From contig NZ_LT670849.1 of NCBI RefSeq assembly GCF_900142985.1, forward strand, positions 930,001 to 994,000: 64,000 nucleotides of DNA, written 5' to 3'. The position numbers and the translations under genes were made by a program. This stretch comes from Bradyrhizobium erythrophlei (lineage in GTDB: Bacteria; Pseudomonadota; Alphaproteobacteria; Rhizobiales; Xanthobacteraceae). A model generated the notes under the pieces. It ran no database searches, was not told where the DNA came from, and saw nothing but the letters and a program-made list of their open reading frames with translations. Below are positions 1-16,056 of the stretch, piece after piece. Within the stretch, counting starts at the first letter, position 1, and each line of letters begins with the position of its first letter.

Positions 1-57
1 GAGAGTCGTGTGCTAGAATAACGGCGATCAATTTGGTCGGCTGGGAGGATGTCTAAA

Positions 58-795
58 ATGAAAAAAGTGGTTCTGATTTCAACCGGCGCTGTCTTAGCCG
101 GTTTCCTCATATGGTCTCCGCTTGCTTTGGCTCAGGGGAAGACCGCCAAAGCCTGCACCGAAGAATGGCGTGCGGACAAGGCTAATTTCCAGGCCAAGGG
201 CGTCACAGAGAGGGCATATGTAGCGCAGTGTCGCGCAGGGGCTGCGCCAACAACGACCGCTGCACCCGCTCCCGCGCCCAACATCGCACCTCCTCCACCT
301 GTCGCTAGGGCTCCCGACAGCACGACTGGCGCAAAGACCGCCAAGGCCTGCACCGAAGAATGGCGGGCAGACAAGGCGAATTTCCAAGCGAAGGGGGTCA
401 CCGAGAGAGCGTACGTAGCGGCATGCCGCGCCGGAACTGTCGCAACACCTACGGTAGGTCCGGCTCCTGCGCCTGCCCCTACCACGACAACCGCCGCACC
501 ACCCCCACCGGCCCCTGCGCCAACGGCCACTAGGCCGACGGCTGAGCCACCATATGGCACCACGCAACGGGCACCCTCCACTGGATCACCCTCCGCTGCT
601 GGTCAATACTCCACCGAGGCCCAGGCGAAGGCTTCTTGTTTCGGGGACACCGTAGTTTGGGTGAACTTGCGATCTAAAATCTACCATTTCGCGGGCACTC
701 ACAATTACGGGAACACCATGAACGGCGCGTACATGTGTGAGAGAGATACGGCCGCACAAGGAATGCGCGCCGCAAAGAACGAACAACATCCTTAA
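58..795 (+). CDS. Secreted Ala/Pro-rich protein with two near-identical Cys-containing repeats
   Basis: A 245-residue exported protein of unknown function. The first ATG (49) lies directly against the GGGAGG at 43-48, so the ATG at 58, nine bases from that Shine-Dalgarno, is the better start. A signal peptide ends near LALAQG. Two copies of a 34-residue unit (KTAKACTEEWRADK to YVAxCRAG) follow, separated by an Ala/Pro/Thr linker; each has two Cys and resembles rhizobial PsiF-like modules. A second Pro/Thr linker leads to a C-terminal domain with two Cys (SCFGDTVVWVN, GAYMCERD). The two units differ at one residue but at many synonymous positions. The location is probably periplasmic. The function is not recognised. 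Confidence 0.8.
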   Translation: MKKVVLISTGAVLAGFLIWSPLALAQGKTAKACTEEWRADKANFQAKGVTERAYVAQCRAGAAPTTTAAPAPAPNIAPPPPVARAPDSTTGAKTAKACTEEWRADKANFQAKGVTERAYVAACRAGTVATPTVGPAPAPAPTTTTAAPPPPAPAPTATRPTAEPPYGTTQRAPSTGSPSAAGQYSTEAQAKASCFGDTVVWVNLRSKIYHFAGTHNYGNTMNGAYMCERDTAAQGMRAAKNEQHP

Positions 796-859
796 ACCGG
801 ATGGGGCAACGCGCCTTGGTCGGTGTGTTGCCCCACTTCCATTTGGATTGGAATTTGGC

Positions 860-1423
860 GTGGCCCTGAGATGCAGGCCATCACCTTCGCTCACGCCGTC
901 TAAGCTTTTGATGCAAGCCCTCGATCGCGTGACCTCGTCCTACGCTGAGCCAATTCTGGATGCGCCCTGTGGATTTGGACGAAACGCCCTAGCTTTGGCC
1001 TCCCTTGGCTACGACGTGATCGCAGTCGATAACAACGTCGATCGTCTCAAGTCGGTCAAAGCATCGGGTGCATTACAATCAAGCGGGTCAGGAAGCATCG
1101 TCACGCTCTGCGCCGACTTGGCTTCGGACCGTCTGCCATTCCGGAAGTCGTCGTTTTCAGCGATTCTTTGCATCCACTATCCCGTGCAGAAGATCATTAT
1201 GGATTTGTGCGCTGCATTAGACGAGGGCGGCTGGCTCTACATCGAGACCTTCGGAGGCCAAGGCCAAAACTACCTCGAATTGCCAAAGCTTGGCGAAATT
1301 CCAGAAGCACTCCAGGGATTTGAGCTAGTCCTATGCAAGGAAAGGCCCGTCGGCCCTCCCTCCTATCGAGCCGCTGTCGTCCAGGCGCTCGCGCAAAAGC
1401 GACCCGGAGACCGACCAGTCTGA
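860..1423 (+). CDS. Class I SAM-dependent methyltransferase
   Basis: A small cytoplasmic methyltransferase of about 187 residues; the substrate is unknown. The SAM-binding motif I is DAPCGFGRNALALA, followed by the acidic motif-II region DVIAVDNN. A CADLASDRLPF segment and the LCIHYPV post-motif fit a Rossmann-fold methyltransferase. The frame is open from 737, inside the preceding gene, so the start is uncertain. GTG 860 keeps the segment PSLTPSKLL that usually precedes motif I, while ATG 911 would give a shorter protein with no clear ribosome-binding site. It sits between the repeat protein and the hxs operon and need not be related to either. Confidence 0.65.
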   Translation: MALRCRPSPSLTPSKLLMQALDRVTSSYAEPILDAPCGFGRNALALASLGYDVIAVDNNVDRLKSVKASGALQSSGSGSIVTLCADLASDRLPFRKSSFSAILCIHYPVQKIIMDLCAALDEGGWLYIETFGGQGQNYLELPKLGEIPEALQGFELVLCKERPVGPPSYRAAVVQALAQKRPGDRPV

Positions 1424-1440
1424 AAAGTTTCCAATCAGAA

Positions 1441-1474
1441 ACAAATTAGCGGCTGTAACAAATTAGCGGCTGTA
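1441..1474. repeat. Perfect 17-bp tandem direct repeat upstream of the hxs operon
   Basis: Two exact, directly abutting copies of ACAAATTAGCGGCTGTA occupy 1441-1457 and 1458-1474, about 110 bp before the hxsA start. Each copy spans more than one helical turn. The pair could be a regulator-binding site for the operon or a replication-slippage duplication; the sequence alone cannot tell which. Confidence 0.7.
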
Positions 1475-1581
1475 AAAATCGGTTTAATCTAAAGTTGGTG
1501 TCATATGACACTTGCAACCACCCGCAAAATAATGCTTTTGTTGTATACGCAATACCAACACTTGAGCCGGGGGATTAACTT

Positions 1582-1884
1582 ATGTCTGTCACTTCAAAAA
1601 CGATTCTTTCACTCGGAGCTGCGATCGCATCTCTGACTGGCGCTCAGGTGCTGGGCACCCAAGCGAACGCCACCCCGGCGGCAACGGACGCGAATGCTGC
1701 AACGGTTGGCACCGAGAACTCAATTCCTCAACTGGAACCGAATGCGCACTATCGACTGGGTGACGATCTACTTGGCTTTGTCATGACTCAGCAGCCGGAC
1801 GGAACGTTGGTTGCGCAACATTCGTCTCATGCTTCGCACGCTTCTCATGCGTCCCACGCTTCGCATGCCTCAAGCCGTTACTGA
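1582..1884 (+). CDS. hxsA: His-Xaa-Ser repeat protein HxsA (radical SAM substrate peptide)
   Basis: A 100-residue precursor of the His-Xaa-Ser system. A hydrophobic N-terminus (about residues 7-27) with a likely cleavage after ANA-30 suggests export. A polar linker and the segment NAHYRLGDDLLGFVM (54-68) lead to the C-terminal repeat: five His-Ala-Ser units from H83 to S97, then Ser-Arg-Tyr. HxsA-family proteins are the presumed targets of the paired radical SAM enzymes HxsB and HxsC; which chemical change they receive is not shown by the sequence. GGGGGA at 1569-1574 is a good ribosome-binding site for ATG 1582. The units use varied His, Ala and Ser codons, so the repeat is held at protein level. 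It is the first gene of hxsADBC. Confidence 0.88.
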   Translation: MSVTSKTILSLGAAIASLTGAQVLGTQANATPAATDANAATVGTENSIPQLEPNAHYRLGDDLLGFVMTQQPDGTLVAQHSSHASHASHASHASHASSRY

Positions 1885-2212
1885 AAAGAACCAGTCGCGA
1901 ATTTCGATTGCTGTCGATTTTGATGCAAGCATTCAGACTCTGGATGTCTTGCAAGCGGCTGCATATCGTCTGATCGGAACAGCAACGTGCCGAATCGAGA
2001 AAATCGACGGTCGACTTATCTGCAATCTTGAGGCTCGGAGCCGATCTTCGCGAGGATCGACGGAAGAAGCGGATGAGCTGAGAACGCGTTTTCTCGATCT
2101 AGTTACAGACGAAAACCTAAGGACACGTCTGGCGGAGAAAACCGCAGGCATTCGCAATGTAATGCTTGCGCTTGCATTCGGATCCTTAGCCGCCGACCAA
2201 GCTAACAAGTAA
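1865..2212 (+). CDS. hxsD: His-Xaa-Ser system protein HxsD
   Basis: A small (115-residue) cytoplasmic partner protein of the Hxs system. It has an LQAAAYRLIG helix near residue 30, a central two-strand region, and a C-terminal signature FLDLVTDENLRTRLAEKT followed by IRNVMLALAF. This matches the HxsD pattern of a LxDYxLRE-like motif then a hydrophobic AF end. ATG 1865 lies inside the last codons of hxsA (20-bp overlap), implying translational coupling; the frame stays open back to 1811 but would then read through the repeat DNA. HxsD has no known catalytic motif. Its role as peptide-recognition or scaffold protein is inference. Confidence 0.8.
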   Translation: MPQAVTEKNQSRISIAVDFDASIQTLDVLQAAAYRLIGTATCRIEKIDGRLICNLEARSRSSRGSTEEADELRTRFLDLVTDENLRTRLAEKTAGIRNVMLALAFGSLAADQANK

Positions 2213-2231
2213 CCTCTAGATTTGGCGTAGA

Positions 2232-3689
2232 ATGGCTCGTTTTGCTGCCGTTGATGCGTTCGGCTCGCCGAGTAGCGAGCTTGCGCTCTTGCCGTTCAAT
2301 TTTGAGCGCACGGGAAACGCACAGTTCTTAGTTTCCAATATGGTGGGCGATTTCATCCGGCTAACTGAGGATGAAATTAACAAGGTCATTGAACTGAAGC
2401 TGAAACCCGGAGATGGGCTGTACGAGAAGGCTTACGCCGCTCATCTGATAACCGGCGCTCAGCAAAGAGCGCAGCAGCAGCTTCTTGCCTTGCGCCTTCG
2501 CAGCCGCATGTCCTTCTTGCGGGAGATGACGCCACTCCACATGTTCGTCGTGACGTTGCGCTGCGAGCATTCCTGCCCTTATTGCCAAGTCTCACGTCAA
2601 AGCACTGATCGCTCGCGATTTGACATGAGCGAAATGACGGCCCAGCGCGCGCTTGATATCGCTTTCCAGAGCAAGTCATCGCGGATAAAGATCGAATTTC
2701 AGGGCGGCGAGCCTCTCCTAAACTTCGACCTGATCCAGAAGATCGTTCAAGCCGCTCAAGCCAAGTCAGCAACGATCGGCAAGAAGGCCGATTTTGTAAT
2801 CGCGACTAACCTGGCGTTGGTCAACGATGAAATCTTGCGATACTGCAAGGCCAACGAAATCCTTTTGTCCACGTCGCTTGACGGTCCTCCCGATCTACAC
2901 AACAAAAATCGACCGAGACCGGGCGGAAATAGCTACGAGTTGGCAATCGACGGCATTCGCCGAGCACAACAGGTGCTTGGAAAAGACCGTATCGGCGCAC
3001 TAATGACAACCACCGAATCCAGTCTGGATCGCGTCGACGCGATCATTGATGAATACTTGAAGCTAGGGTTAGAAGGCATTTTCCTTCGTCCGCTCTCACC
3101 ATTTGGTTTTGCAATCAAGACTAAGCAGTATCACCGCTACGATACGAAGCGCTGGTTACGTTTCTTCGAGCGGGGTCTCCGGCGCATTCTGGAAATCAAC
3201 CACCAAGGCCGGCCTTTTCGCGAATTCTATTCGGCGCTGGTCCTCACCAGGATGTTGACCGACAAACCGATCGGCTACGTTGATTTGCGCAGCCCGGCCG
3301 GCGTCGGTATCGGAGCATTGGTCTACAATTATGATGGAAACGTCTATGCCTCTGACGAGGGGCGCATGCTCGCCGAGACAGGCGACAACGCCTTCCGGCT
3401 CGGCCACGTTGATACTCACGACTACCGCTCGCTCGTACTGTCCGACACATTGATTGACGCTATTTCGGCTTCCCTAACCCAATGTGCTCCCGAATGTTCG
3501 GACTGCGTGTTTGAAAGCCACTGCGGGGCAAACCCCGTGCATCATCACGCGACCCAAGGTGACATGCTTGGTATCAAGCCACTTTCGGATTTCTGCGAAC
3601 GCCAAAAAGGGACAATGCGCCTACTGCTTGAAATATTGGAGAACTCTCCGAAAGACGCGGCGATCCTGCGGCAGTGGGCAGGCATATGA
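2232..3689 (+). CDS. hxsB: His-Xaa-Ser system radical SAM maturase HxsB
   Basis: A 485-residue radical S-adenosylmethionine enzyme. The [4Fe-4S] cluster motif CxxxCxxC is C111-EHS-C115-PY-C118, followed by the SAM-binding EFQGGEPLL segment. The C-terminal region has a SPASM-like cluster domain with C418, C422, C425, C431 and C455 (CAPECSDC, then SHCG and FCER), expected to hold auxiliary Fe-S clusters. The first 100 residues form the extra N-terminal domain seen in paired Hxs maturases. HxsB presumably modifies the HxsA repeat together with HxsC; the reaction is unknown from sequence. The start ATG 2232 is 19 bp after hxsD, and the stop overlaps the hxsC start (ATGA). Confidence 0.88.
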   Translation: MARFAAVDAFGSPSSELALLPFNFERTGNAQFLVSNMVGDFIRLTEDEINKVIELKLKPGDGLYEKAYAAHLITGAQQRAQQQLLALRLRSRMSFLREMTPLHMFVVTLRCEHSCPYCQVSRQSTDRSRFDMSEMTAQRALDIAFQSKSSRIKIEFQGGEPLLNFDLIQKIVQAAQAKSATIGKKADFVIATNLALVNDEILRYCKANEILLSTSLDGPPDLHNKNRPRPGGNSYELAIDGIRRAQQVLGKDRIGALMTTTESSLDRVDAIIDEYLKLGLEGIFLRPLSPFGFAIKTKQYHRYDTKRWLRFFERGLRRILEINHQGRPFREFYSALVLTRMLTDKPIGYVDLRSPAGVGIGALVYNYDGNVYASDEGRMLAETGDNAFRLGHVDTHDYRSLVLSDTLIDAISASLTQCAPECSDCVFESHCGANPVHHHATQGDMLGIKPLSDFCERQKGTMRLLLEILENSPKDAAILRQWAGI

Positions 3690-4885
3690 CCCTCCCCCTA
3701 TTTGGTGTTGCTAAAAGTTGCGCGGGATTTGCGGACGATATGCCGCGGACGGTTGTTCGCCTGAGGTCGCCGGAAGCAGCTGAGCCCTTCGGGGACTACG
3801 ATTTTGCACTTGTCAAATCCACCGACGATATTTCTCAGTCACTTAAAAACGGACGCCGCTCAATTTTTGTGATCGGCGATTCAGCTGATATTTCTACCCC
3901 GGTGGCTAGCCGATTTGACCGAACAATCTCGCTACCGACCAACTTCGATTATCTGGGTCCTGGCGATATTCTTGGATTTCATATTCCAACCAAGAAGTTT
4001 CGGACTCTGTTTAGGGAAAACTCGCGGCACAACTCGTTCCTGGTAACCGAGCGCTGCAACAATTATTGCCTGATGTGCTCGCAGCCGCCAAAGGATATCG
4101 ACGATCGTTGGATCCTGGATGAGATTAAAAAGAGCTTGCCGCTCGTTCCAAAGACTACTCGCACGCTGACTTTTACGGGCGGAGAGCCTTTATCGGACTG
4201 GGTTGATTTTATCAAGATTCTCAAAGATTGTCGGAATTTGCTTCCAGACACGGCCATTCAAGTTTTGACGAACGGCCGCGCGTTTGCAAATTCGGAAATT
4301 GTGGATGCCTGGAAAGCCATAGCTCATCCCAGTCTCATCGCGGCAATCCCCGTCTATGCGGCTGTCGATTATCTGCACGACTACGTCGTTCAGGCGAATG
4401 GGGCTTTCGATGAAACTATCCTTGGTATTTTGAAGCTTAAGGATCGAGGACAGCGCGTCGAGGTTCGCGTGGTTTTACACGCGCACACGGCACCGAGCAT
4501 TGCAGAGACAAGTCGGTGGATCGCTAGAAATTTGCCCTTCGTTGACCACGTCGCCCTGATGGGGATGGAAAACACGGGGTTTGCGCTCGCCAACGAGAAG
4601 TCGCTCTGGATCGATCCGATCGATTATCGAGAGAGCCTGGCTGAAGGCGTTCAAACCTTGTCCGCCACGGGCATGAATGTCTCAATCTATAATCTTCCGC
4701 TTTGCGTTATCGAACCCATCATTTGGCCGCACGCCGTCCAGTCGATATCCGATTGGAAGAATGGTTATGTGGAGGAATGTGAGAAGTGTGCTCAGAAGAG
4801 CAATTGCAGCGGATTGTTCACTTCCGGTCGACCGCGCCAAAGTCGCGGGATTTCAGCGATTTTAAATCGACAGCCGGCAGCTTAA
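3686..4885 (+). CDS. hxsC: His-Xaa-Ser system radical SAM maturase HxsC
   Basis: The second radical SAM enzyme of the operon, 399 residues. The CxxxCxxC motif is C124-NNY-C128-LM-C131, followed by TFTGGEPLSDW for SAM binding. Near the C-terminus, VEECEKCAQKSNCSG provides three Cys in a short SPASM/twitch-like motif. The N-terminal 110 residues carry no recognised fold. ATG 3686 is chosen because it makes an ATGA overlap with the hxsB stop; a GTG at 3674 would add four residues. Two different radical SAM proteins in one operon with a single repeat peptide is the hallmark of this family and suggests two sequential or cooperative steps. Confidence 0.87.
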   Translation: MTLPLFGVAKSCAGFADDMPRTVVRLRSPEAAEPFGDYDFALVKSTDDISQSLKNGRRSIFVIGDSADISTPVASRFDRTISLPTNFDYLGPGDILGFHIPTKKFRTLFRENSRHNSFLVTERCNNYCLMCSQPPKDIDDRWILDEIKKSLPLVPKTTRTLTFTGGEPLSDWVDFIKILKDCRNLLPDTAIQVLTNGRAFANSEIVDAWKAIAHPSLIAAIPVYAAVDYLHDYVVQANGAFDETILGILKLKDRGQRVEVRVVLHAHTAPSIAETSRWIARNLPFVDHVALMGMENTGFALANEKSLWIDPIDYRESLAEGVQTLSATGMNVSIYNLPLCVIEPIIWPHAVQSISDWKNGYVEECEKCAQKSNCSGLFTSGRPRQSRGISAILNRQPAA

Positions 4886-5062
4886 TTCGAGCGCTGGCAG
4901 CAATTCGTACATCGAGATGTTACGGAATATTTGGGTAATGGCCGAGCTGTGAGCCCTGACGTAACTCGATATGAACGAGCGGGGCGTGTTAGCCTTTGCA
5001 GCAGCATTCGGCTATCTATAGGAATTCGCCCAATATCAACCCGCGGGCGGGGAAACGGGGCA

Positions 5063-7284
5063 ATGACGACGAAAATCGAGGCTCACGAGCGTACAATCGG
5101 CGATATCTTCAGCGACTTTTATCAATTCGAGATCCCACCCTATCAGCGCCCCTACGCATGGGAAGAAGAGCAAGCACGCGAGCTCCTAGCAGATCTATTG
5201 GATGCGATGGACAACCGCAACGTAAGCGGTGGTCTTTATTTCTTGGGTAGCATCGTACTCGTCAAACCTCCGTCCGAAGCCCATGCCAGGGTTATCGACG
5301 GCCAGCAACGACTCACGACGCTGACCATTCTTCTGAGTGTGTTGCGCGATCTGACAACGGATGTTGAACGCAGGATCGAGCGCAGATCATACGTCTATCA
5401 AAAAGCGAGTCCCGACAAAGGACTGAGGGAGCGTTACCGACTTGTGCTCCGCGAGCGTGACCGGCCGTTCTTTCTGAAGTACGTTCAAGCCCGGACGCGA
5501 CGAACGATTTGGCTGACGCCACGAAGCTGGAAGGCAGTCAAAAACGTATCGCGGAAAATACAAGGATCCTGCGGAATCAACTTGAGCAGGTATCAGAAGA
5601 GCGGAGAAACGCGCTCATCGCTTTTCTGATCCAGCATTGTTATCTCGTCGTGGTCGCCGTTCCGACACCCGAGGCTGCCCGCAGAATCTTTACCGTTCTG
5701 AATGCCCGCGGCCTAGATCTCACTCCAACCGACATCCTCAAAGCCGATCTGCTCGAACGCGCAGGCGATGACCTGGAGACGCCACTCGCTACCCGATGGG
5801 AGCAGGTGGAGCACGCATTGGGGCGCGACCGAATGGTCGAATTGTTCGGCCATATCCGAATGATCTATGAGCGGGACAAACCGCGGTTGGCACTGGAGAC
5901 AGGTTTTCAAAAGTTCGTTCCGCCGTTTTCCGGAAAGGCGGACGCATTTATCTCAGATATTCTAGAGCCGGTCACAGATACTTGGCTTTTGCTGACGGAT
6001 AACGCGCGCGTGCAGAAGCATTATGGAAACGAAGCAGCCAAGGCGGTCCGGTCGCTCGATCGGATCGACAACAAGGACTGGCTGCCTCCCGCGCTGCTTC
6101 GAATGTGGAAGGGCAAAGAGCTCGAAGGCCAGGCTGTCGCAGATTTTCTGGTCGCGCTGGAACGCCTAGCTTATTTTCTTTTTGTCACGCGTGCGGGCGT
6201 GAACGACAGGATCGCGCGCTTCGCCGCCGTGATGGATGAATTCGACCCGCGCAAAAGCAAAGAAGACAAGGATAAGAAGAAAGCCGATATGGGTCTCGAT
6301 TTATCGGACGCCGAACAACATAAGCTCGTGCGCGTCTTATCGGGGCCACTCTATGAAGTCAGCCGCGTTTGCAAACCGGTGATGCAGCGGTTGGATGAAG
6401 CTTTATCAAGCGGCGGCGCAAGCTACGACGAACTTGTCTCGATCGAGCACGTCCTTCCACAAACGGTCGATGACGGCAGCGAGTGGGAGCAGTTGTTCCC
6501 GGACGAGCAGGAACGTTCCGACTGGACCCACCGGCTGGCAAATTTGGTCTTCCTGACGCATCGGATCAATAGCCGTGCTTCGAATTGGGATTTCGAACGA
6601 AAGAGGAAGGAATACTTCGCGTCCTCAGACGGCTCCTCGCCTTTCGTGATCACCCAAGGGGTATTGCAAGCGGAAGGCTGGACGCCGGAGCATCTCGGCG
6701 AGCGGCAGACTCAGTTGTTGGAGAGGCTCTGTGAGGTCTGGGATTTGAAGGCCGTGGATTTGGAGGCTGAAATTGTCAACCTATTGCCACAGAAGGGCAC
6801 GTGGCGCTTCACGGATACTGAGATCATAAAAGCCAAGCGTAGTGAAATACTCGAGGCGTTGAGTAACAGGGAGAAGGTTGCGCTAAACAAGAAGGGAGCG
6901 TTGTCATGGACTGACGATGAAGGCGTCCGCGTCGTTAGCACCATTTCGAAACGCTACGATCGACGCGCCGCTCCCTATTGGTATGGATACTCACCCGAAT
7001 GGAGAAAATTCTTATCGGGAGCACAGAGGTCGTTCTTGGTGCTGGGATGCGTCGACAGAAACACGGCTTACGCCATTCCTGCACAGGAGATCGAAAAGAT
7101 CATCGATGATCTCCATATGTCGCCGGCTAAACGTGATGAGGATTCGACCAAACATACTGTAGAGGCTTCAGCCAGGCATTGGCACATTGTTTTGGACGAT
7201 AACGACGATGGTGGCCTTGATTTAGTGCCAAGGAAGGGGTCAAGGATACCCGTCAAAAAATTCGAACTCAAACTAACCGAATAG
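5063..7284 (+). pseudogene. GmrSD-like DUF262 / HNH (DUF1524) protein, broken by a one-base frameshift
   Basis: It encodes what would be a protein of about 740 residues. The DUF262 nucleotide-binding domain is marked by PPYQRPYAW (25-33) and DGQQRLTTL (79-87). A helical middle region follows, then a DUF1524 HNH nuclease core with IEHVLPQ near 6440 and NLVFLTHRINSRASNW, and a C-terminal extra domain. Such proteins resemble GmrSD/BrxU-type restriction factors against modified phage DNA. The frame changes near 5486-5490: after FFLKYVQ it runs out as ARTRRTIW, while the next frame gives SPDATNDLADATKL, as expected if one A was lost from a CAAAGCC. This is either a disabled gene or a sequencing error. 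It follows hxsC by 177 bp on the same strand. Confidence 0.8.
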
Positions 7285-7466
7285 AGCCGAACGCGGCTAG
7301 GGCAGGCTCAGGGCCGGGTTCACTAAGTCCGTCAACGGCGCCAGCGAAGGCGCCGGCATCGTTGAGAGGACTTGGATAATCGGAGACCTGACCGATCGCG
7401 CGCTTGCTTCGTAGCCCGTTGCTCCGGCCCAGAAGGACGGAAGCTCTTCACCGCAGGCGGAGGGGA

Positions 7467-7712
7467 CTAACCGATCGCCATGATGCTGGGATCGACAAAG
7501 TCACCCTTCATAGGCACGACTTTGTCGCCCGCAAACGGTAGAAGCAGTTCGAATTGATCTTTGAATTGCTTTCTCGCCGCAGTCCTTTCGATCCTCTCTG
7601 GTTGCGGCAATGGCGGGAGTTTCGGCATCCGTCCTTCGAGAATATCAGCGATAGTGACAACTTGGAGCCGTGGCAACCCTCCGCGCCTAAGGTTTGATTG
7701 TTTGATAATCAA
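7467..7712 (-). pseudogene. Possible C-terminal remnant of a DNA methylase
   Basis: An 81-codon open frame without an ATG start. Its first part (LRRGGLPRLQVVTIADILEG, then MPKLPPLPQP) resembles the tail of adenine-specific DNA methylases, which end with a PRLQIxTxxELLxGK.PK.PP segment. The catalytic and SAM-binding motifs are absent. It is therefore probably a 5'-truncated leftover of a mobile restriction-modification gene. It lies next to the broken DUF262 gene and points away from the ribbon-helix-helix gene. The resemblance is from memory of the family and is weak; it could instead be a short unrelated gene. Confidence 0.35.
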
Positions 7713-7716
7713 TCAA
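7694..7716. promoter_or_regulatory. Inverted repeat before the ribbon-helix-helix gene
   Basis: TTGATTG (7694-7700) and CAATCAA (7710-7716) form an inverted repeat just upstream of the ATG at 7728. Ribbon-helix-helix proteins commonly bind such short operators and repress their own genes, so this is a plausible autoregulatory site. Binding itself is inferred. Confidence 0.4.
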
Positions 7717-7727
7717 TCGAGGCGACG

Positions 7728-7943
7728 ATGGGCCGCAAGCCAAAGACCACTGGACCACGAGCTCGCGACCCTGGCGCATTCAAATCTGTACTGGTTCGTA
7801 TAAATGCCGATGGCTGGCGGGCGCTGAAGATGCTGGCGATCGAAAACGATGCAACGCTAAACGCCTTGGCGGTTGAAGCCTTCAATGATTTGCTGAAAAA
7901 GCACGGGAAACGTCAGCTGGTCGAGAATCCGCTGCTGGACTGA
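7728..7943 (+). CDS. Small ribbon-helix-helix type DNA-binding protein
   Basis: A 71-residue protein with a basic N-terminus (MGRKPKTTGPRARD), a beta-strand segment (SVLVRINADGWRALKML) and a helix (TLNALAVEAFNDLLKKHG). This is the order of a ribbon-helix-helix antitoxin-like or plasmid-type regulator. GAGGCGAC just before ATG 7728 serves as ribosome-binding site. No toxin gene of the usual small size follows directly, so a toxin-antitoxin role cannot be claimed; self-regulation through the upstream inverted repeat is likely. Confidence 0.7.
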   Translation: MGRKPKTTGPRARDPGAFKSVLVRINADGWRALKMLAIENDATLNALAVEAFNDLLKKHGKRQLVENPLLD

Positions 7944-8102
7944 GATTGGCTACTTTCCTCATTAGGAAGGCAATTAATAACCCTAACCGATTCAGGGCCC
8001 AGACGATGTTAACCTGGGCTTCACGATGGCCCAGGAGGATTGGCCCGGGTTAATCAATTGAACATTAGCGATGCCCATGATCGCATAAAACGGACATGGG
8101 AT

Positions 8103-8306
8103 ATGGCGGATACAAGCTCTTGCACCTGCAGCGATGTGCATACTCGCGCCATTTGCGACGAGGTTGGCGAACGACTTCGATTTCTCCTAAACCAGTCGCA
8201 GACGCCACCACCTCCAAGAATTTTGGCGTTGCTATTGCAACTCCAATTGGCCGAAATGAAAGCGCCGGCGCAAGTACTCCGGCAGCGGACTTCTACTGCT
8301 GCCTGA
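8103..8306 (+). CDS. Small hypothetical protein
   Basis: A 67-residue hypothetical protein with a Cys pair near the start (SCTC) and helical stretches (ICDEVGERLRFLL, RILALLLQLQLAEM). The frame is open from TTG 8040, but the AGGAGG at 8033-8038 is too close to that codon to serve it. ATG 8103 is used here although its own ribosome-binding site is poor. The function is not recognised. Confidence 0.45.
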   Translation: MADTSSCTCSDVHTRAICDEVGERLRFLLNQSQTPPPPRILALLLQLQLAEMKAPAQVLRQRTSTAA

Positions 8307-8369
8307 AGAGTCGTAGTCGCTCAAGACTGTCGCATCAGTCGGCTGGTCCAGATCGGCTAAGGGGAAGTG

Positions 8370-8582
8370 ATGGTCGTTCTCCGAGAGATTCTTTATCTCT
8401 GCTGCATGGCAATAACTATCTTGTGCGGGATCGCAGCACTCACGATCACGGTGGCAATCGTTACAAACAAGCTTCCGGAGGACCCGCAGGCTTGGATGGC
8501 AGCGGTGTTCTTTGCGGCGGTCGGCGCCGCTGCTTGGATAGCTGGTCGCGCGGCAAGGTGGGACTGGTCGAGCTCGGGCTGA
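8370..8582 (+). CDS. Small membrane protein with two predicted helices
   Basis: A 70-residue hydrophobic protein with two membrane segments: about residues 4-30 (ILYLCCMAITILCGIAALTI) and 41-62 (WMAAVFFAAVGAAAWIAG). They are joined by the polar turn TNKLPEDPQ. A GTG at 8367 directly precedes ATG 8370; GGGGAAG upstream fits either. It lies 13 bp before the next small gene in the same direction, suggesting co-transcription. The function is unknown. Confidence 0.55.
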   Translation: MVVLREILYLCCMAITILCGIAALTITVAIVTNKLPEDPQAWMAAVFFAAVGAAAWIAGRAARWDWSSSG

Positions 8583-8595
8583 AAGCGGAGGGAAA

Positions 8596-8814
8596 GTGAA
8601 GAGGCCTCTAAAGGAATATGAGATCAGGCGCCTCCTGCACAGAGCGTGGAGCCGACGGCGGCTGGCAGCCTCGCCAAGTGTTCGCAACGCTTTGCAACTG
8701 AACCTCAATCGAGAACTCGAAGAACCACGCGGCGAGGCCGTGAAGTATTTCTTCGCCGCCCTTATCCTCCAGGGCCTGCTCTACCTAGTCTATAGTCGGC
8801 TTGGAATAAGCTAG
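8596..8814 (+). CDS. Small protein with C-terminal membrane anchor
   Basis: A 72-residue protein starting at GTG 8596 after a GCGGAGGGAAA ribosome-binding site. A basic, helical N-terminal half (IRRLLHRAWSRRRLAASPSV) is followed by a single C-terminal membrane segment (YFFAALILQGLLYLVYS). The shape suggests a tail-anchored inner-membrane protein. No family is recognised; the neighbour upstream is also a small membrane protein. Confidence 0.55.
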   Translation: MKRPLKEYEIRRLLHRAWSRRRLAASPSVRNALQLNLNRELEEPRGEAVKYFFAALILQGLLYLVYSRLGIS

Positions 8815-8818
8815 GGCT

Positions 8819-8881
8819 CCCGGCGGCCTTCGCTCATCGGGCACCAACCGTGGGGAACAAAAAAAGAGGCCGCCGATTTTT
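8819..8881 (+). terminator. Possible long-loop terminator after the small membrane gene pair
   Basis: CGGCGGCC just after the 8814 stop pairs with GGCCGCCG about 36 bases later, followed by ATTTTTG. The stem is strong but the loop is long, so termination activity is uncertain. Confidence 0.35.
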
Positions 8882-8886
8882 GTGGA

Positions 8887-9087
8887 ATGGAATACCGAGG
8901 CACGACATACAATGTCATTCAAGGCATAGAGCGCCGGGTCTGGAAATGGTCAGTATCGGTTGCGGGCGTGGTGCTGAGGGGCCAAGCGGAGACTAAATCC
9001 GCAGCCGTGGCCGCGGCTGAGAAAGCAATCGATCGGGCACTGGCTCCTAGAAACGTGCCGCGTGCGCCCCGCGTCGACCCGGATTGA
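8887..9087 (+). CDS. Small hypothetical protein of Bradyrhizobium type
   Basis: A 66-residue protein with alternating strands (MEYRGTTYNVIQGI, WKWSVSVAGVVLRGQAET) and a helix (KSAAVAAAEKAIDRAL). It resembles the abundant small rhizobial proteins that start MEYRGxxY and have the WxxxVxxxG pattern. These are probably single-domain alpha/beta proteins; no function is known for them. The start ATG 8887 is the only reasonable one. Confidence 0.6.
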   Translation: MEYRGTTYNVIQGIERRVWKWSVSVAGVVLRGQAETKSAAVAAAEKAIDRALAPRNVPRAPRVDPD

Positions 9088-9170
9088 CCTTCACCAAATG
9101 GGGCGCCGCCGCGACGTGGACGCGCGCCTGTGTTATTTTGGCTCCGGACAGCCGAGAGGCAGAAGCTTCA

Positions 9171-9195
9171 CGTCTCGGCCCGCGCGGCCGAGACG
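9171..9195. other. Perfect 10-bp inverted repeat (hairpin)
   Basis: CGTCTCGGCC (9171-9180) and GGCCGAGACG (9186-9195) are exact complements around a five-base spacer. The hairpin lies about 110 bp upstream of the DUF1330 gene. There is no T-run on either side. It could be an operator or a structured leader. Confidence 0.55.
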
Positions 9196-9303
9196 AATTG
9201 CTTGAACCTTAGGTTGACCGCCGCGACTCACGTTTAGGGCGAGGTGCGCCCGAATAAGGGGGTGTTCGTCCTGTTTTGAAATCGCACAATCGGAGGGAAT
9301 GCC

Positions 9304-9693
9304 ATGAGATCCAACTACAAAATCACTATGGTATTGCTGGCTGGCGTCGCAATCGGCGCTATCGCGGTTCAGGGCCTCCACGCTCAAGGGGCCAAGCTGA
9401 AGGCCTACGCTATCAGTGAACTTGAGACCCTCGATGCCTCAGCCCAAGCCGCGTACCTGCCTGCCGCCCGCAAGGCGATAGAAGCAGCTAACGGTCACAC
9501 TTTGCGCACCGCGGCCGGACGAGTGGTTCAAATAGAGGGCGGGCCGGCTCCCAAGAATGTCGGAATTACTGAATGGGCCAGCCTGGATGATGCTGTGGCA
9601 TTCTACAAGTCTAAAGCCTGGGCGGACCTTGCACCCGATCGCGACAAGGCGACCAAAGTGGTGCGGCGGTACGTCGTTGAAGTTGAAAAGTAG
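9304..9693 (+). CDS. DUF1330 family exported protein
   Basis: A 129-residue protein with an N-terminal signal peptide (KITMVLLAGVAIGAIAVQGLHAQG) and a ferredoxin-like DUF1330 domain. Typical DUF1330 features are KAYAISELETLD, the YLPAARKAIEAANG helix, and WASLDDAVAFYKSKAW near the end. The catalytic role of the family is unknown; a dimeric alpha-beta barrel is expected. CGGAGGGAATGCC before ATG 9304 is a strong ribosome-binding site. The gene appears to be transcribed alone and ends before a GC-rich hairpin. Confidence 0.85.
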   Translation: MRSNYKITMVLLAGVAIGAIAVQGLHAQGAKLKAYAISELETLDASAQAAYLPAARKAIEAANGHTLRTAAGRVVQIEGGPAPKNVGITEWASLDDAVAFYKSKAWADLAPDRDKATKVVRRYVVEVEK

Positions 9694-9708
9694 CGGTAGT
9701 CAAAGGCA

Positions 9709-9731
9709 GGGGCCGCCTCGTGGGCGGCCCC
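9709..9731 (+). terminator. GC-rich hairpin after the DUF1330 gene
   Basis: GGGGCCGCC (9709-9717) pairs with GGCGGCCCC (9723-9731). The T-run is poor (GTCTACTT), so this may be a weak terminator or an mRNA-stabilising hairpin. Confidence 0.4.
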
Positions 9732-9822
9732 GTCTACTTGATCGCCGTTGATTCGCGACAGTTTCGTGTTCAAGGCCAATGGTGAAGCTCACGCTTCGAC
9801 TGGGTGAAGCCCAAGGGCCGGG

Positions 9823-10140
9823 GTGAGCGTGAAGAACAAAGATCTTGCAGCGTTGTCCGTCGACCAACTTTGGCGTCTGCGCGCGGAGATTGAAAGGCTT
9901 TTGTCTTCGAAAATAGAAACCGAGAAGCGAAAGCTTGAGCAACGTCTTGCTCAGCTTGAGGGGCGCACCGAGCCTAAAAAAAGAACTCGGCGACCTTACC
10001 CAACGGTTCGTCCAAAATATCGCAACCCGGAGCGCCCCTCGGAAATCTGGTCTGGACGAGGGAAGCAACCGCGCTGGGTCCGCGCGCAACTTGCGTCAGG
10101 AAAGAAATTAGACGATCTGCTTATTTCACAGACGCACTGA
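9823..10140 (+). CDS. H-NS / HvrA-like nucleoid-associated protein
   Basis: A 105-residue DNA-binding protein of the alphaproteobacterial H-NS group. The N-terminal half is a coiled-coil oligomerisation helix (LWRLRAEIERLLSSKI, EKRKLEQRLAQLEG). A basic linker (KKRTRRPYP) leads to the C-terminal DNA-binding motif around PKYRNPERPSEIWSGRGKQP. GTG 9823 is the likely start. Such proteins silence A/T-rich, horizontally acquired DNA, which fits its place inside this accessory region. The 3' end overlaps the convergent gene at 10126-10335 by 15 bp. Confidence 0.85.
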   Translation: MSVKNKDLAALSVDQLWRLRAEIERLLSSKIETEKRKLEQRLAQLEGRTEPKKRTRRPYPTVRPKYRNPERPSEIWSGRGKQPRWVRAQLASGKKLDDLLISQTH

Positions 10141-10335
10141 CGGCCGGTCGTCTCTTGTAAGAGGACTATAAATCCGCTTCCTATTGAGAGGGTTTTTTGG
10201 CACGCAACGGAGCTCTGCCCTTCGAACTTCGTCGCGAAGCCTTTGCAACTCCAGATAACGATCCTCTAGGGTGCTGCCGTTCGACAGCGTTCGCGTTCGC
10301 GTAATTTTCGCTGACGTCGATCCCTGGCTCTTCAT
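10126..10335 (-). CDS. Small hypothetical basic protein
   Basis: A 69-residue protein; ATG 10335 follows a good GGGGAAT ribosome-binding site on the minus strand. It is rich in Arg and Ser/Thr and has one clear helix (DRYLELQRLRDEVRRAELR). It ends convergently inside the last 15 bp of the H-NS-like gene. No family is recognised. Confidence 0.5.
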   Translation of the reverse strand: MKSQGSTSAKITRTRTLSNGSTLEDRYLELQRLRDEVRRAELRCVPKNPLNRKRIYSPLTRDDRPSVRL

Positions 10336-10583
10336 GACTATTCCCCTCATTTAGATGGGTACTAAAAGCCGCCGTAAGATTTGATCGCCTTCAAAAAACA
10401 TCCTAGTGCGACGCACAAATTACGTCGCGATGAAATTATATACTATGGACATGTTGATTGGGCAAAATTCTGCCTTCACTTTAGGCAGAGCTAGCCTCAC
10501 ACAGAGCGCCCTCTCACTGATCCCGAACCGCACGAGTCCGGCACCTTCATCCGGTTCACGCAGGCAGGCGCGGACCTGTTCGC

Positions 10584-10817
10584 GTGAAGAAGCTGACGCG
10601 ATCCGGCTGGGTGCCATTCGAAGTTCCTCCCGGCGTTGCACGGGCATTCATCGAGGACATGAAGGCGTATTTTGCCGAGGAGAACGGGCACAAGCGTGAC
10701 GCGATCGCAGTCCGCGAGCTTCACGCGCTCAAGGAGCATCAAGGGCCGCGAGAGAAGGCGCTTCGATTGTCATACGTGAAGGCGATGTTTTTAGAGATGA
10801 AGGGTATTGTTGGTTGA
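10584..10817 (+). CDS. Small hypothetical protein of Bradyrhizobium type
   Basis: A 77-residue soluble protein beginning at GTG 10584. The sequence KKLTRSGWVPFEVPPGVARA, then MKAYFAEEN and RDAIAVRELHALKEHQGPRE, resembles short proteins that are common in Bradyrhizobium genomes, without known function. Its stop codon overlaps the start of the next miniature gene (TGATG), so the two are probably translationally coupled. Confidence 0.65.
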   Translation: MKKLTRSGWVPFEVPPGVARAFIEDMKAYFAEENGHKRDAIAVRELHALKEHQGPREKALRLSYVKAMFLEMKGIVG

Positions 10818-10969
10818 TGAAAAAACCAGTCGCTAATCCATCAGAGCGCGACTGCCCGGAATGTATGGGGAGCGGCTTCACGGTCGTGAAGCATCCAACG
10901 AAACCCGGCGTCAAAATTTATAAAGCGTGTGAAGAATGTCTAGGCAAGGGACGTGTTGCCGCCAATTGA
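10817..10969 (+). CDS. 50-residue zinc-finger miniprotein (DnaJ-type CxxCxGxG motifs)
   Basis: A 50-residue gene whose ATG overlaps the previous stop (TGATG). It encodes two CxxC knuckles of the DnaJ cysteine-rich type: CPECMGSGF near the N-terminus and CEECLGKGR near the C-terminus, spaced by about 22 residues. Four Cys would bind one zinc ion. There is no J domain. The role is unknown; coupling to the 77-residue protein upstream suggests that they act together. Confidence 0.65.
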   Translation: MKKPVANPSERDCPECMGSGFTVVKHPTKPGVKIYKACEECLGKGRVAAN

Positions 10970-10991
10970 GGCGGCGGCCTTAAGGAGTTCT

Positions 10992-11144
10992 ATGCGTTCA
11001 TCAGTCTGGATAGCGATCTTCGTCGGCTCGACAATAGGTGGCATGGTGCCAGAGCTGTGGGGCGGTGACATGCTTTCCTATTCCGGCGTACTGCTCAGCG
11101 GCGTCGGTGCGTTCGCGGGGCTGTGGGTTGCATACAGGCTTTAA
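10992..11144 (+). CDS. 50-residue inner-membrane miniprotein
   Basis: ATG 10992 follows the strong AAGGAG ribosome-binding site at 10983-10988. The product is almost entirely hydrophobic, with two short membrane segments (VWIAIFVGSTIGGMVPEL and YSGVLLSGVGAFAGLWVAY). A longer frame from GTG 10953 exists, but it would overlap the previous gene and skip the ribosome-binding site. Similar 50-residue membrane proteins are common in Bradyrhizobium; no function is known. Confidence 0.6.
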   Translation: MRSSVWIAIFVGSTIGGMVPELWGGDMLSYSGVLLSGVGAFAGLWVAYRL

Positions 11145-11462
11145 GAGACGCTTCAGAATTAGGCCACTAGGGGTCGAAACAGGCGAATAACCCACTGGGG
11201 GTGCTGTGCCAATTAGGACAGTGCTGTAGACGGTATTTGTCCGGCTATCTCAGCCTGTGGATAACTCTAAGCTGCCTCTTGCCGGGGCTGAGATTTTCAT
11301 CACGCACAAATTTTGCCGGCCATTGGGGTCGCCGAGAGGTGACCCCTTTCGATTCCAGCGCTCGGAAGCTGAAAGCGGCATCAAAAAGAAAGCCGCCCAC
11401 TGAGGCAGCCTTAATTCGAGGGACTTGTTTTCTTCCTGCCCAGTGCCTTCGTCGGCTACCTG
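11145..11462. other. Intergenic stretch without a supported gene
   Basis: No convincing coding frame on either strand. One imperfect hairpin is present (GGGGTC ... GTGACCCC near 11327-11346). It lies between plus-strand and minus-strand small genes, so it may hold transcription ends for both. Confidence 0.5.
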
Positions 11463-11624
11463 TTAGTCGAATGTTTCTTGAGGGATCTGCGGACGTGAGT
11501 GCACCATGCTCATCCAGCCTTGGGCGATCCGCAGCCAGGATGCACGGTCTACTTCGCTGATAGCTCGGTCTGCCTGTCGCTGCGCCTCAACGGCGCGACG
11601 CCGGTATTCGTCCTGAGTAGCCAT
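11463..11624 (-). CDS. 53-residue hypothetical protein
   Basis: A minus-strand gene of 53 codons starting at ATG 11624. The product is one charged helix followed by AISEVDRASWLRIAQGWMSM and a short polar tail. The DRAxWLRIAxGW pattern is shared by many short Bradyrhizobium proteins (often 50-70 residues), which supports it being real. The function is unknown. The next minus-strand gene upstream starts at 11892. Confidence 0.6.
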   Translation of the reverse strand: MATQDEYRRRAVEAQRQADRAISEVDRASWLRIAQGWMSMVHSRPQIPQETFD

Positions 11625-11688
11625 GATCCGACGATGCGCCTATTTCGGCAATCGGAACAGTTACAAATCAAAAAGGAACCACGAGGCC

Positions 11689-11892
11689 TTACGTCGGTGC
11701 TCTCAATTCGCCCTGAAGCCAACCTGCAACTTCGCGTGACTTCATGGGGTCGTCCCATTCGGTGACAATCTGGTGGATGTCGCTGCACAGCTGGCACTCA
11801 AAGGTGCGGATGTGGAAGCCTAAGTGGCTGGGCGTGATCTGCGCCAGTATCGTTACGCTTTTGCAGATCGGACATAGCGGTCGGAAGGACAT
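11689..11892 (-). CDS. Small zinc-ribbon-like protein
   Basis: A 67-residue protein with two CxxC pairs (CPIC at residues 7-10, CQLC near 33-36) separated by about 22 residues, a typical single zinc ribbon. The rest, ILAQITPSHLGFHIRTFEC and a C-terminal DPMKSREVAGWLQGEL, matches a small-protein family widespread in Bradyrhizobium. It is probably co-directional with the 53-residue gene downstream. The role is unknown. Confidence 0.65.
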   Translation of the reverse strand: MSFRPLCPICKSVTILAQITPSHLGFHIRTFECQLCSDIHQIVTEWDDPMKSREVAGWLQGELRAPT

Positions 11893-12087
11893 GGTTGCGC
11901 GCCTTGATGAGGCGGGAGCACAACACTCTCAGTCACCGGGTATATGCCGTTACAGGGCCGGTGATGAATCGATCATGGCGCGTTGCAATACAGGCACGAT
12001 GTTCCGTTTTGCTCACCTTCGAAATGAAATTAACGATTGGTTCACGAATTGGTCTGCTGTCCGACTCAATTTGAGCAAAAGCCATTT

Positions 12088-12171
12088 TCAAAGGTGGAAA
12101 GCCGCAAAAACAAGCACGCCGATTAGAAAAGCGAGCGCAATAGCAATGAGCGCTAGAAAAAACTTGGCCAT
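12088..12171 (-). CDS. Possible 27-residue membrane peptide
   Basis: ATG 12171 opens a 27-codon frame encoding a nearly uniform hydrophobic helix: MAKFF, LALIAIALAFLIG, VLVFAAF, then His-Leu. The pattern (basic residue, one membrane segment, short end) fits a small inner-membrane peptide, and the codons are not repetitive. There is no homology evidence, so it may be chance. Confidence 0.3.
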   Translation of the reverse strand: MAKFFLALIAIALAFLIGVLVFAAFHL

Positions 12172-12340
12172 ATAGAACCAACAAGGCGCATTCTCATTGG
12201 TTGCTAGGTCGCCTTACGTCATCATGGCGGACCTCATGGATTGCTCAATACGCCGTCAGGCCGTGTTCTGCTCCGAAATGAACACAACCAAACGACACTT
12301 TCAGCAGAGAAACACCGCGCTTCTGAGGAAGTTATTCCGC

Positions 12341-12547
12341 ATGACCACTTGCATGCGCTGCTTCGGATGCCGCTGGGTTTGCGAGGCCCATCCTCATATG
12401 GCCTGGGAAGGCGAGTATGCCTGTGGTTGCGGCGCGCCCGGAATGCCATGCCCGGCTTGCAACAAGCCCGCTGAAGGCGAGATGCCCAGGATGCCGGCGG
12501 CTTTGAAACAGAGTTCAATAGGAGCTGCTGGTGGAATTGACGGATAA
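12341..12547 (+). CDS. Cys-rich small protein with several CxxC/CxC motifs
   Basis: A 68-residue protein with eight Cys in CMRCFGC, WVC, CGCG and CPAC, plus His in EAHPHMAWEG. The pattern Cys-rich - WVCEAHP - W.G - CGCGAPGMPCPACN matches a zinc-binding small-protein family frequent in Bradyrhizobium. ATG 12341 is chosen to start just before the first Cys motif; the frame is open further upstream. It probably binds one or two zinc ions. The function is unknown. Confidence 0.55.
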   Translation: MTTCMRCFGCRWVCEAHPHMAWEGEYACGCGAPGMPCPACNKPAEGEMPRMPAALKQSSIGAAGGIDG

Positions 12548-12853
12548 GACGGCTCCGCACAGTCCGGGGCGTGCATTGGCGGAGCCGCCAACGGCGGCAC
12601 TGGAGGAGACACACTGTCCGCCGTCCATAAGCTTACGGGCGCAATCGCCTTAGGTTGCTAAGCTCGGATCAAGCGCGAATCCTCGCTCCTAAAAGTCCTG
12701 TAATGGAGGCGACTGTCGAACCGGCCGGCCGCTGCCAGAGTGATGTACTCATTTGCGTTAAAAATCTATTCCCTTTCGAGAAAGCGCCGCAACTGCGCCG
12801 TGACTCAGGATTTGGCTTTGGGGTCAGGTCTGGGGCTTGTACCGGGGGAAACA
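12548..12853. other. Intergenic stretch without a supported gene
   Basis: About 300 bp. Several short frames are open but none has a good start and protein-like composition. It presumably contains the promoter of the exported protein at 12854. Confidence 0.45.
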
Positions 12854-13141
12854 ATGAGGGTCCTTGCCGCGATACTTACCTTGCTAGTTTCAAGTGCTGC
12901 CGCCGCTCAAGAGTGCAAGACTTGCTCAATGGCCGATGCCTGCACAAAGGCATACTTTAAAGCTACGTTGGAAGCCCAAAGCGCCACTAAGCAGGCGATC
13001 CGGGATTGGAAACAGAATCTAGATAAAAAGGCCTCCGCAGAATTGTCCAACAGGGGCGCGCTCGCGTTACAAGACGCCATGGAAACGCAAGTTCGTTCTG
13101 AGCTGGAACGCCTGAAGGAGTGCTTAGCCAAGATTAGGTAG
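12854..13141 (+). CDS. Small exported protein with Cys residues
   Basis: A 95-residue protein. The signal peptide RVLAAILTLLVSSAAAAQ is cut before ECKTC. The mature part begins with three Cys (CKTCSMADAC), continues as a charged helix (ATLEAQSATKQAIRDWKQNL) and ends with a helix containing one more Cys (LERLKECLAKIR). A periplasmic helical protein with two disulfides is likely. CGGGGGAAACA precedes ATG 12854. No family is recognised. Confidence 0.6.
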   Translation: MRVLAAILTLLVSSAAAAQECKTCSMADACTKAYFKATLEAQSATKQAIRDWKQNLDKKASAELSNRGALALQDAMETQVRSELERLKECLAKIR

Positions 13142-13322
13142 CTGACCGGAGCTGCCTGGTTAACCCTGATTAGTTTCCTTAAGACGCAGATTGCCTTGCG
13201 ACCATCGGTCCCGAGAATGCAGCGTTCGCGGCGACGCTCCGGCACTAAGTGACGTCAAGGCGTTTGCCTTTTCCGACTCGCTAAATAAGTCCTTCAAGGA
13301 CGGGGCGCATGCGAGGTGCTGC

Positions 13323-13580
13323 ATGCAATTCAGTCGTGTTATTAATCCCGTCGGTGACATGCAAATATGGAACGCAAGCGGCGACGGTTTCTCGTTTGTG
13401 ATCAGTTATGAGAGCCGCAGCGGTCCTGGTCTTCATGGTGCTCCGGGCTTTGTAGCATCTTGGCGTCCACTTCATGACAACAGGGGCGCAGTCAAAGTTA
13501 TCGGGTCACCTTTCAAGACATTCGAAGCGGCCGAGGAAGCCTGCGAAACAATGCTAGGATATTTGACAGAGAGGCATTAG
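13323..13580 (+). CDS. Small hypothetical protein
   Basis: An 85-residue protein from ATG 13323; a second in-frame ATG at 13359 (MQIWNASGDGF) may be the true start. Its middle (FSFVISYESRSGPGLHGAPG, then FVASWRP) and end (SPFKTFEAAEEACETML) look like a compact alpha/beta domain found in short Bradyrhizobium proteins. No function is known. Confidence 0.5.
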   Translation: MQFSRVINPVGDMQIWNASGDGFSFVISYESRSGPGLHGAPGFVASWRPLHDNRGAVKVIGSPFKTFEAAEEACETMLGYLTERH

Positions 13581-13693
13581 TCGCAGCTTCACGAAGACTT
13601 TGGTCGCCCGTTGTGTGAATTGGGGTGCACCCGCCAGCGACTGATCGGCCTACGTTGTCATCGCCGTTTCACGGCGGTTCCTCCCTTAACTTG

Positions 13694-13721
13694 GCGCCCG
13701 TCGCGAATGGCGGGCTTTTTT
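13694..13721 (+). terminator. Rho-independent terminator
   Basis: The stem GCCCG (13696-13700) pairs with CGGGC (13711-13715) around a ten-base loop, followed by TTTTTT. It stands about 115 bp after the 13580 stop and 90 bp before the lipoprotein gene, so it would end transcription entering from the left. Confidence 0.6.
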
Positions 13722-13809
13722 CGAAGCTCCTGGTGCGGCCTTCGCGCGTGCAGTATTGCCTTCGACCCCAGGTTGCGGTTGGATGGCGGCCGGTCGGGGG
13801 ATCAGCAAA

Positions 13810-14190: not shown

Positions 14191-14300
14191 CGGCACATCC
14201 GTAGGATACGGCCGCGTCGCATCCCCAATCCCTAGCGGTTTCCCTCCGCGGATCGGCCGGGGACACGTCACGGAGCGTGGCGTAACATCTGTAACGCTTG

Positions 14301-15122: not shown

Positions 15123-15199
15123 CTAAGGTAGGACTTATTGCTGATCTAGCGCAATCCCTAGCGGCTTCACGCACGGTGCCTTTTTCGCGATCATGGGAT

Positions 15200-15775: not shown

Positions 15776-15839
15776 ATATAGTGAACCTTCTGCTCCTCGA
15801 TCAAGCTGTCGCTAAAAGGTCTGTTCAATTTATTTCTCC

Positions 15840-16052: not shown

Positions 16053-16056
16053 TCGC

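Follow-up and report, generated by a model that had tools for sequence, protein, structure and literature searches.

We analysed a 64,000-nucleotide (nt) stretch of the Bradyrhizobium erythrophlei genome (contig NZ_LT670849.1), referred to here as the window, in which positions 1582-4885 hold an intact hxsA2-hxsD-hxsB-hxsC operon, a member of the His-Xaa-Ser (Hxs) system known in silico. The four reading frames are open and intact and run in a single direction on the + strand, with start and stop codons checked. The first gene, hxsA2 (1582-1884), encodes a precursor protein of 100 aa without cysteine, and is followed by hxsD (1865-2212, 115 aa), which starts within hxsA in a different frame, by hxsB (2232-3689), encoding a radical S-adenosylmethionine (SAM) maturase of 485 aa, and by hxsC (3686-4885), encoding a second radical SAM enzyme of 399 aa. 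For hxsD we preferred the ATG at 1865 over the TTG at 1811, resulting in a 20-nt overlap with the end of hxsA; the spacing between hxsD and hxsB is 19 nt, while hxsB and hxsC overlap by 4 nt (ATGA). The tight operon of short gaps and start/stop overlaps described in the original prediction, which was made from the sequence alone, was confirmed, all four genes being open at the coordinates given there.

The assignment to Hxs also held. HxsA2 (NF038296, 66.4 bits versus a cut-off of 48), HxsB (TIGR03978, 606 versus 370) and HxsC (TIGR03977, 375 versus 268) clear the curated NCBIfam cut-offs, and further loci encode the same sets. HxsD scored only 40-40.5 bits against TIGR03976 (cut-off 50), so that the predicted HxsD signature missed the curated line; its operon position and 1084 database relatives, many named HxsD, speak for the assignment, and the 120 relatives listed all carry Pfam PF27806. 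Since the precursor passed NF038296 and did not pass the HxsA profile TIGR03979 (30 bits versus 122), we assign it to the A2 type. The source genome, a single contig of 7.5 Mb, contains one HxsB above the cut-off and one HxsA2, and its closest named hxs relatives come from Bradyrhizobium (HxsB identity 92%).

The precursor ends in a tail of six H-x-S units (HSS followed by five HAS; 1819-1872) and a final SRY, in agreement with the five His-Ala-Ser units originally predicted. The His codons are CAT (four) and CAC (two) and the Ala codons GCT, GCG and GCC, and this mixture of synonymous codons shows that the tail is no recently arisen DNA repeat. Across 619 tail units in 114 database relatives, His occupied the first position in 613 and Ser the third in 618, while the middle position accepted 13 different residues, with Ala the commonest and small residues (A, S) dominant. 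This count covers the 114 anchorable proteins among 120 listed of 359 relatives, gathered partly via common tail words, and reading ended at any unit with neither H nor S; a deviating unit was present in 6 of the 114. Six proteins without an anchor were omitted, two of them without a tail in the part examined and four whose tails contain one HAT and two PAS units. The fixed spacing of His at position one and Ser at position three throughout the family, together with the mixed codons, indicates that the constraint acts on the protein. Consistent with this, 51 of 53 distinct hxs loci across phyla encode a tail protein whose 5 to 10 units follow one another without a break, as found with a search pattern that itself required H and S in at least three units; the two loci without one were a truncated set (L006) and L079.

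Ahead of the tail lies a segment (residues 54-79, NAHYRLGDDLLGFVMTQQPDGTLVAQ; 1741-1818) that is conserved in Bradyrhizobium-type relatives and loosely in other phyla. Residues 1-30 (1582-1671) resemble a signal peptide by eye, with a charged start, a hydrophobic ILSLGAAIASLTG stretch and an ANA site, and relatives are laid out alike, which makes export of HxsA2 plausible. Some relatives start with KKRxFLxP-like (Tat-type) motifs, a start that the window HxsA2 does not have. Thioether modification was considered and is excluded by the absence of cysteine from HxsA2.

Both radical SAM enzymes carry the expected motifs. The CxxxCxxC motif of HxsB (C111, C115, C118; 2562-2585) and that of HxsC (C124, C128, C131; 4055-4078) are invariant in 21/21 aligned sequences each, as are the additional C-terminal cysteines that had been noticed earlier in both proteins (C422, C425, C431 and C455 in HxsB, 3495-3596; C340, C365, C368 and C374 in HxsC, 4703-4807). 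Four invariant C-terminal cysteines per enzyme suggest that HxsB and HxsC may each bind one auxiliary Fe-S cluster.

In the AlphaFold2 model of HxsB (predicted local distance difference test score, pLDDT, 79.5), β-strands at residues 22-26, 31-36 and 41-45 and helices at 46-53, 62-69 and 79-92 precede the core. The domain formed by residues 20-92 (2289-2507) is therefore predicted to have a β-β-β-α-α-α topology like that of a RiPP (ribosomally synthesized and post-translationally modified peptide) recognition element (RRE). The full model resembles anSME, the closest solved fold by Z, CteB, the best Foldseek match, and ChlB; the CteB alignment starts at residue 21 and the TigE alignment at residue 13, so that both take in the N-terminal domain. 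The N-terminal domains of CteB and TigE are RREs. Three points limit the RRE-like assignment of the HxsB domain: most fold alignments of HxsB span residues 93-470 only, the domain was compared only within the full-length model, and a Pfam scan of HxsB returned no PqqD-type match.

We also considered HxsD as an RRE and found this unlikely. Its AlphaFold2 model (mean pLDDT 83) has a ferredoxin-like β-α-β-β-α order, which differs from the RRE order, and no RRE or PqqD entry appeared among the 50 VIA and 50 Foldseek matches listed. Structural matches to HxsD were weak (best by Foldseek Pcc1, E 0.019), no solved relative was found by sequence at E up to 1, and the accessible portions of the main text of two RRE papers (PMC12710340, PMC7470986) do not mention Hxs. 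Given the RRE order in HxsB, the different order and weak matches in HxsD and the silence of those papers, we propose that leader recognition would sit in HxsB and that HxsD may act as a partner or scaffold.

We also surveyed hxs genes more widely. HxsB above the cut-off was present in 13 of 195 genus genomes; with the E limit set to 1e-60, matches came from 8 of 385 class genomes (6 above the cut-off) and from 15 of 398 phylum genomes (14 above the cut-off). HxsB relatives are encoded by 23 named loci and 31 further genome stretches, with HxsC in nearly all and HxsD and a tail protein in most. A scan of 55 loci with an E limit of 1e-3 detected HxsB and HxsC in all 55 and HxsD in 48, a count that includes two genomes twice, one weak HxsC (L079, <60 bits) and the truncated L006. 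Relatives occur in Bacteroidota, Acidobacteria, Eremiobacterota, Legionella and Methylovulum, as well as on plasmids of many hosts including cyanobacteria, in a Leptospira phage and in 6 viral contigs. Klebsiella accounts for 304 of the 328 plasmid records found to encode an HxsB relative, those listed being 31-32% identical to the window HxsB; one such plasmid set (L104) has the order D-B-C-A and is flanked by insertion sequences. The genes flanking hxs differ widely between loci, as expected of an accessory, often mobile cassette.

Short precursors (HxsA2) mostly come first, in the order A-D-B-C. Long HxsA proteins with a peptidoglycan-binding-like C-terminus follow hxsC in the Proteobacteria seen and precede hxsD in the Bacteroidota seen. 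In an Eremiobacterota locus (L005:7659-8784) there are two tandem HxsA-type genes, one of which encodes a longer product with centrally placed repeats. Bradyrhizobium erythrophlei GAS478 (L006) has truncated hxsB and hxsC genes, and the stretch examined yielded no hxsD and no tail protein; L006 is a decaying hxs set.

The operon had been called complete, and all four genes are indeed present, but this description is too narrow, because immediately upstream there is a methyltransferase gene, a member of a proposed hxs-linked family. The gene spans 860-1423 on the + strand and encodes a class I SAM-dependent enzyme (Pfam Methyltransf_25/11) of 187 aa from a GTG at 860, a start chosen by comparison with relatives within a reading frame open from 737. 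Of the 195 genus genomes 3 contain the family, each of them one of the 13 that bear HxsB (hypergeometric value 2.4e-4, relatedness ignored); one of the three copies is broken, and the gene is absent from the other 10 HxsB-bearing genomes. Beyond the window, six of 70 distinct hxs loci carry the methyltransferase within the flanks examined, in four arrangements relative to hxs. It adjoins hxs in L002, L003, L010, L012 and L023 and lies beside an HxsA-like gene in L131. In Methylovulum (L010), for example, the gene and the end of hxsC overlap, in an Acidobacteriaceae metagenome-assembled genome (MAG; L023) it lies 4 nt past hxsC, and in an Acidobacteriales MAG (L012) it is found upstream of hxsA in divergent orientation.

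A profile of the methyltransferase family matched 70 of the 385 class genomes at E up to 1e-15. Only two matches exceeded 91 bits (265 and 169; the next was 90.4), a line set after the gap had been seen and with at most eight candidates scored per genome; the 68 genomes with weaker matches were taken to hold generic methyltransferases. Both strong matches adjoin an hxsA gene, one in the source genome and the other in genome G520. In G520 the methyltransferase lies beside a gene for an HxsA-like protein with six H-x-S units, which scores 25 bits against the HxsA2 cut-off of 48, and no HxsB or HxsC above the cut-off was found in this assembly, rated 95% complete. As the contig stops about 570 nt past the HxsA-like gene, the remaining hxs genes may have been lost or left unassembled.

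In addition, the match lists for the methyltransferase family and HxsD share nine same-sized contigs of at least 3 kb, where 0.11 were expected and at most 2 appeared in shifted controls; with contigs of any size the corresponding numbers are 13, 2.1 and at most 7. This comparison used 119 entries in each list of 120, and one shared entry (30011) is L003, which is counted elsewhere too. Among viral contigs there were 70 pattern matches to the methyltransferase and no true relative among them, and an NCBIfam scan gave it no hxs-related name. It is a generic class I enzyme whose nearest solved counterparts by sequence are Slr1183 and TehB. Overall, the link between the methyltransferase and hxs recurs, yet in a minority of hxs sets, and on balance we are evenly divided on whether HxsA is its substrate. 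The region between the methyltransferase gene and hxsA contains a perfect palindrome, GTGTCATATGACAC (1498-1511), which we rejected as a conserved operator since it is not preserved in 7 aligned relatives; the adjacent TTGCAAC is kept in 4 of the 7. An Rfam scan of window positions 1-9000 gave no structured RNA family above threshold.

Further upstream, positions 49-795 (+ strand) encode a putatively exported protein with two KACTEEWRADKANFQAKGVTERAYVA repeats and a C-terminal VVWVN..YH..YGNT..GAYMC domain. It is an hxs neighbour within Bradyrhizobium whose membership of the system is uncertain, found near hxs in 12 loci (the window counted; two are second copies of one genome). In a search of the 195 genus genomes for strong matches, its C-terminal domain reached at least 76 bits in 10, of which 9 are among the 13 with HxsB (hypergeometric value 7.5e-12, relatedness ignored); the tenth (G165) lies on a contig without hxs. 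Weaker matches of 37 to 57 bits occurred in 13 further genus genomes, none with HxsB. Several Bradyrhizobium loci also have, near hxs, the gene for another small protein, which in this genome is encoded immediately left of the window (L145:4031-4522). The link between the 49-795 neighbour and hxs may stem from common descent of the segment.

The surrounding DNA differs in base composition. G+C content is 52-60% over window positions 1-20000 and the left flank (L145), including 52-53% across hxs, and about 60-66% past 20 kb. The low-GC stretch begins before the window and ends at about 20 kb, with a tRNA-Gln gene (20672-20746) close to the change; no border repeat of this tRNA of at least 15 nt was found in the window and left flank. 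By its composition the segment looks like acquired DNA. On the other side of the operon, hxsC is adjoined by a GmrSD-type restriction gene (4931-7284), with residues 1-113 of GmrSD_N in one open reading frame and the rest of GmrSD_N plus GmrSD_C in the next, and since it is split across two frames this gene looks broken. Of 290 neighbouring genes, collected with 16 loci, mainly near-duplicates, omitted, 20 were Pfam-scanned. Nucleases lie near hxs in four hosts, two of which are methane-oxidising relatives: Endonuclease_NS (Pfam) genes occur in L010:13205-14191 and L022:13356-14093, and two plasmids carry annotated thermonucleases (L100:7633-8349, L101:8027-8563). Secreted nucleases as general hxs partners are a lead.

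For the short-precursor (HxsA2) system we propose a leader-guided modification of the H-x-S tail, which would include methylation in a subset of sets, and we lend this scheme about half of our confidence. HxsA2 would be synthesised with its signal-like N-terminus, and the RRE-like N-terminal domain of HxsB may grip the segment at residues 54-79 ahead of the tail before export. HxsB and HxsC, with HxsD as a small helper, would then modify the tail one unit after another by radical cross-linking or oxidation, the two radical SAM enzymes perhaps sharing the work or taking alternate units, and export would follow. Where the methyltransferase is present HxsA may also be methylated, most simply on its imidazoles or C-terminus, and the product would be an exported tail, perhaps metal-binding or cell-wall-associated. 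A link to the cell wall is hinted at by the long HxsA proteins, whose annotation includes a peptidoglycan-binding domain.

With no cysteine in the precursor, and with His and Ser conserved on either side of a variable residue, the most likely targets are the His and Ser of each unit, which would be linked or otherwise altered. Our tentative first choice, by analogy with three-residue cyclophanes, is that the imidazole becomes joined by a C-C (or C-N) bond to the β-carbon of the Ser two residues further on. Such a link would best fit a reaction that needs His and Ser at i and i+2 in every unit. The second choice, which we think unlikely, is that the tail Ser (or His) is oxidised instead of cross-linked, for example Ser to formylglycine, or carries another unlinked product. 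Anaerobic sulfatase maturases convert Ser to formylglycine and act on Ser or Cys.

A different reading sees the tail mainly as a metal-binding (Zn, Ni, Cu) His array, in which the radical SAM enzymes tune the site and the methyltransferase N-methylates imidazoles in the manner of METTL9. The six His residues, one every third residue, and the predominance of small residues (A, S) between His and Ser are in keeping with such an array, as is the occurrence in G520 of the methyltransferase beside an HxsA-like gene with neither HxsB nor HxsC above the cut-off. METTL9 methylates His in HxH with a small x, according to the accessible part of PMC12269839; H-x-S differs from this motif, however, and with a generic class I enzyme nearest to Slr1183 and TehB, kinship with METTL9 is only a guess. 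Moreover, no recurring neighbour family resembled a metal transporter, sensor or chaperone by eye, the families being partly profile-searched, and we consider a metal array about as improbable as Ser oxidation. It is slightly less improbable, though still doubtful, that neither the methyltransferase nor the exported neighbour has any part in Hxs, both being passengers of one shared low-GC segment. The low G+C content across hxs, the absence of the methyltransferase from most HxsB genomes of the genus and the fact that its association in Bradyrhizobium could reflect shared ancestry of the segment would all fit passengers, whereas its recurrence in differing arrangements in Methylovulum and the two acidobacterial MAGs, its position beside HxsA alone in G520 and the adjacency to hxsA of both strong class matches argue against it. 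For the 49-795 neighbour, whose strong matches are known from the genus only and include the G165 contig without hxs, passenger status is easier to reconcile with the data.

The most far-reaching form of the leader-guided scheme, and the one we regard as least probable of those named here, is that every His-x-Ser unit becomes a strained His-Ser cyclophane (or comparable link), with imidazoles or terminus also methylated in the methyltransferase branch. Plasmids, phages and chromosomal segments would then spread a poly(modified histidine) tail, and the methyltransferase could act on HxsA without HxsB and HxsC.

To our knowledge, Hxs has been a named orphan system for more than a decade; the founding paper is reportedly that of Haft and Basu in 2011, which PMC9062424 cites. 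The system occurs in several phyla, on plasmids and in at least one phage. The short Bradyrhizobium set offers a compact route to an Hxs product, with a single precursor whose six units are nearly identical, a pair of radical SAM enzymes, a small partner protein and a candidate tailoring enzyme. To the known system our analysis adds a linked methyltransferase, a proposed leader-binding domain in HxsB and a family-wide H-x-S constraint. The earlier description of Hxs as recognised in silico and chemically uncharacterised agrees with the searchable literature: we found no Hxs biochemistry or product in the open literature, a search that most subscription papers lie outside, and the accessible portions of PMC9062424 and PMC8446631 use Hxs names without reporting Hxs biochemistry.

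Compared with the Hxs system as defined by NCBIfam (TIGR03976-03979, NF038296), the window shares all four genes, the A2-D-B-C order and the H-x-S tail, and differs in an HxsD below the curated cut-off, in the upstream hxs-linked methyltransferase and in near-uniform His-Ala-Ser units. METTL9 of eukaryotes shares with the proposed branch the idea of methylating evenly spaced His among small residues, a functional likeness that is a guess. anSME, the closest solved fold to HxsB by Z, differs in its motif, and HxsB falls below the anSME profile cut-off. CteB/PapB-type thioether (ranthipeptide and sactipeptide) maturases include the best Foldseek match of HxsB, in an alignment that takes in the N-terminal domain, and PapB is its second-best NCBIfam profile, under its cut-off; unlike their substrates, HxsA2 lacks cysteine and a thioether is impossible. 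The triceptide synthases (HaaB, ScaB, MscB, ChlB) are likewise radical SAM enzymes and act on short aromatic-x-x motifs, with ChlB among the closest solved folds to HxsB. In contrast to them, HxsB fails their related family profiles (FxsB 42.7 versus 370 bits, GrrM/OscB 57.1 versus 310, XyeB 44.4 versus 450, YhhB 67 versus 445), and Hxs has two radical SAM enzymes, HxsD and no known product. According to the accessible part of PMC11002830, other radical SAM enzymes make a C2(His)-to-Cβ(Ala) link at i+2 and a Phe-to-Cβ(Ser) link, so that His at i and Ser at i+2 each have a separate precedent among triceptide-type links.

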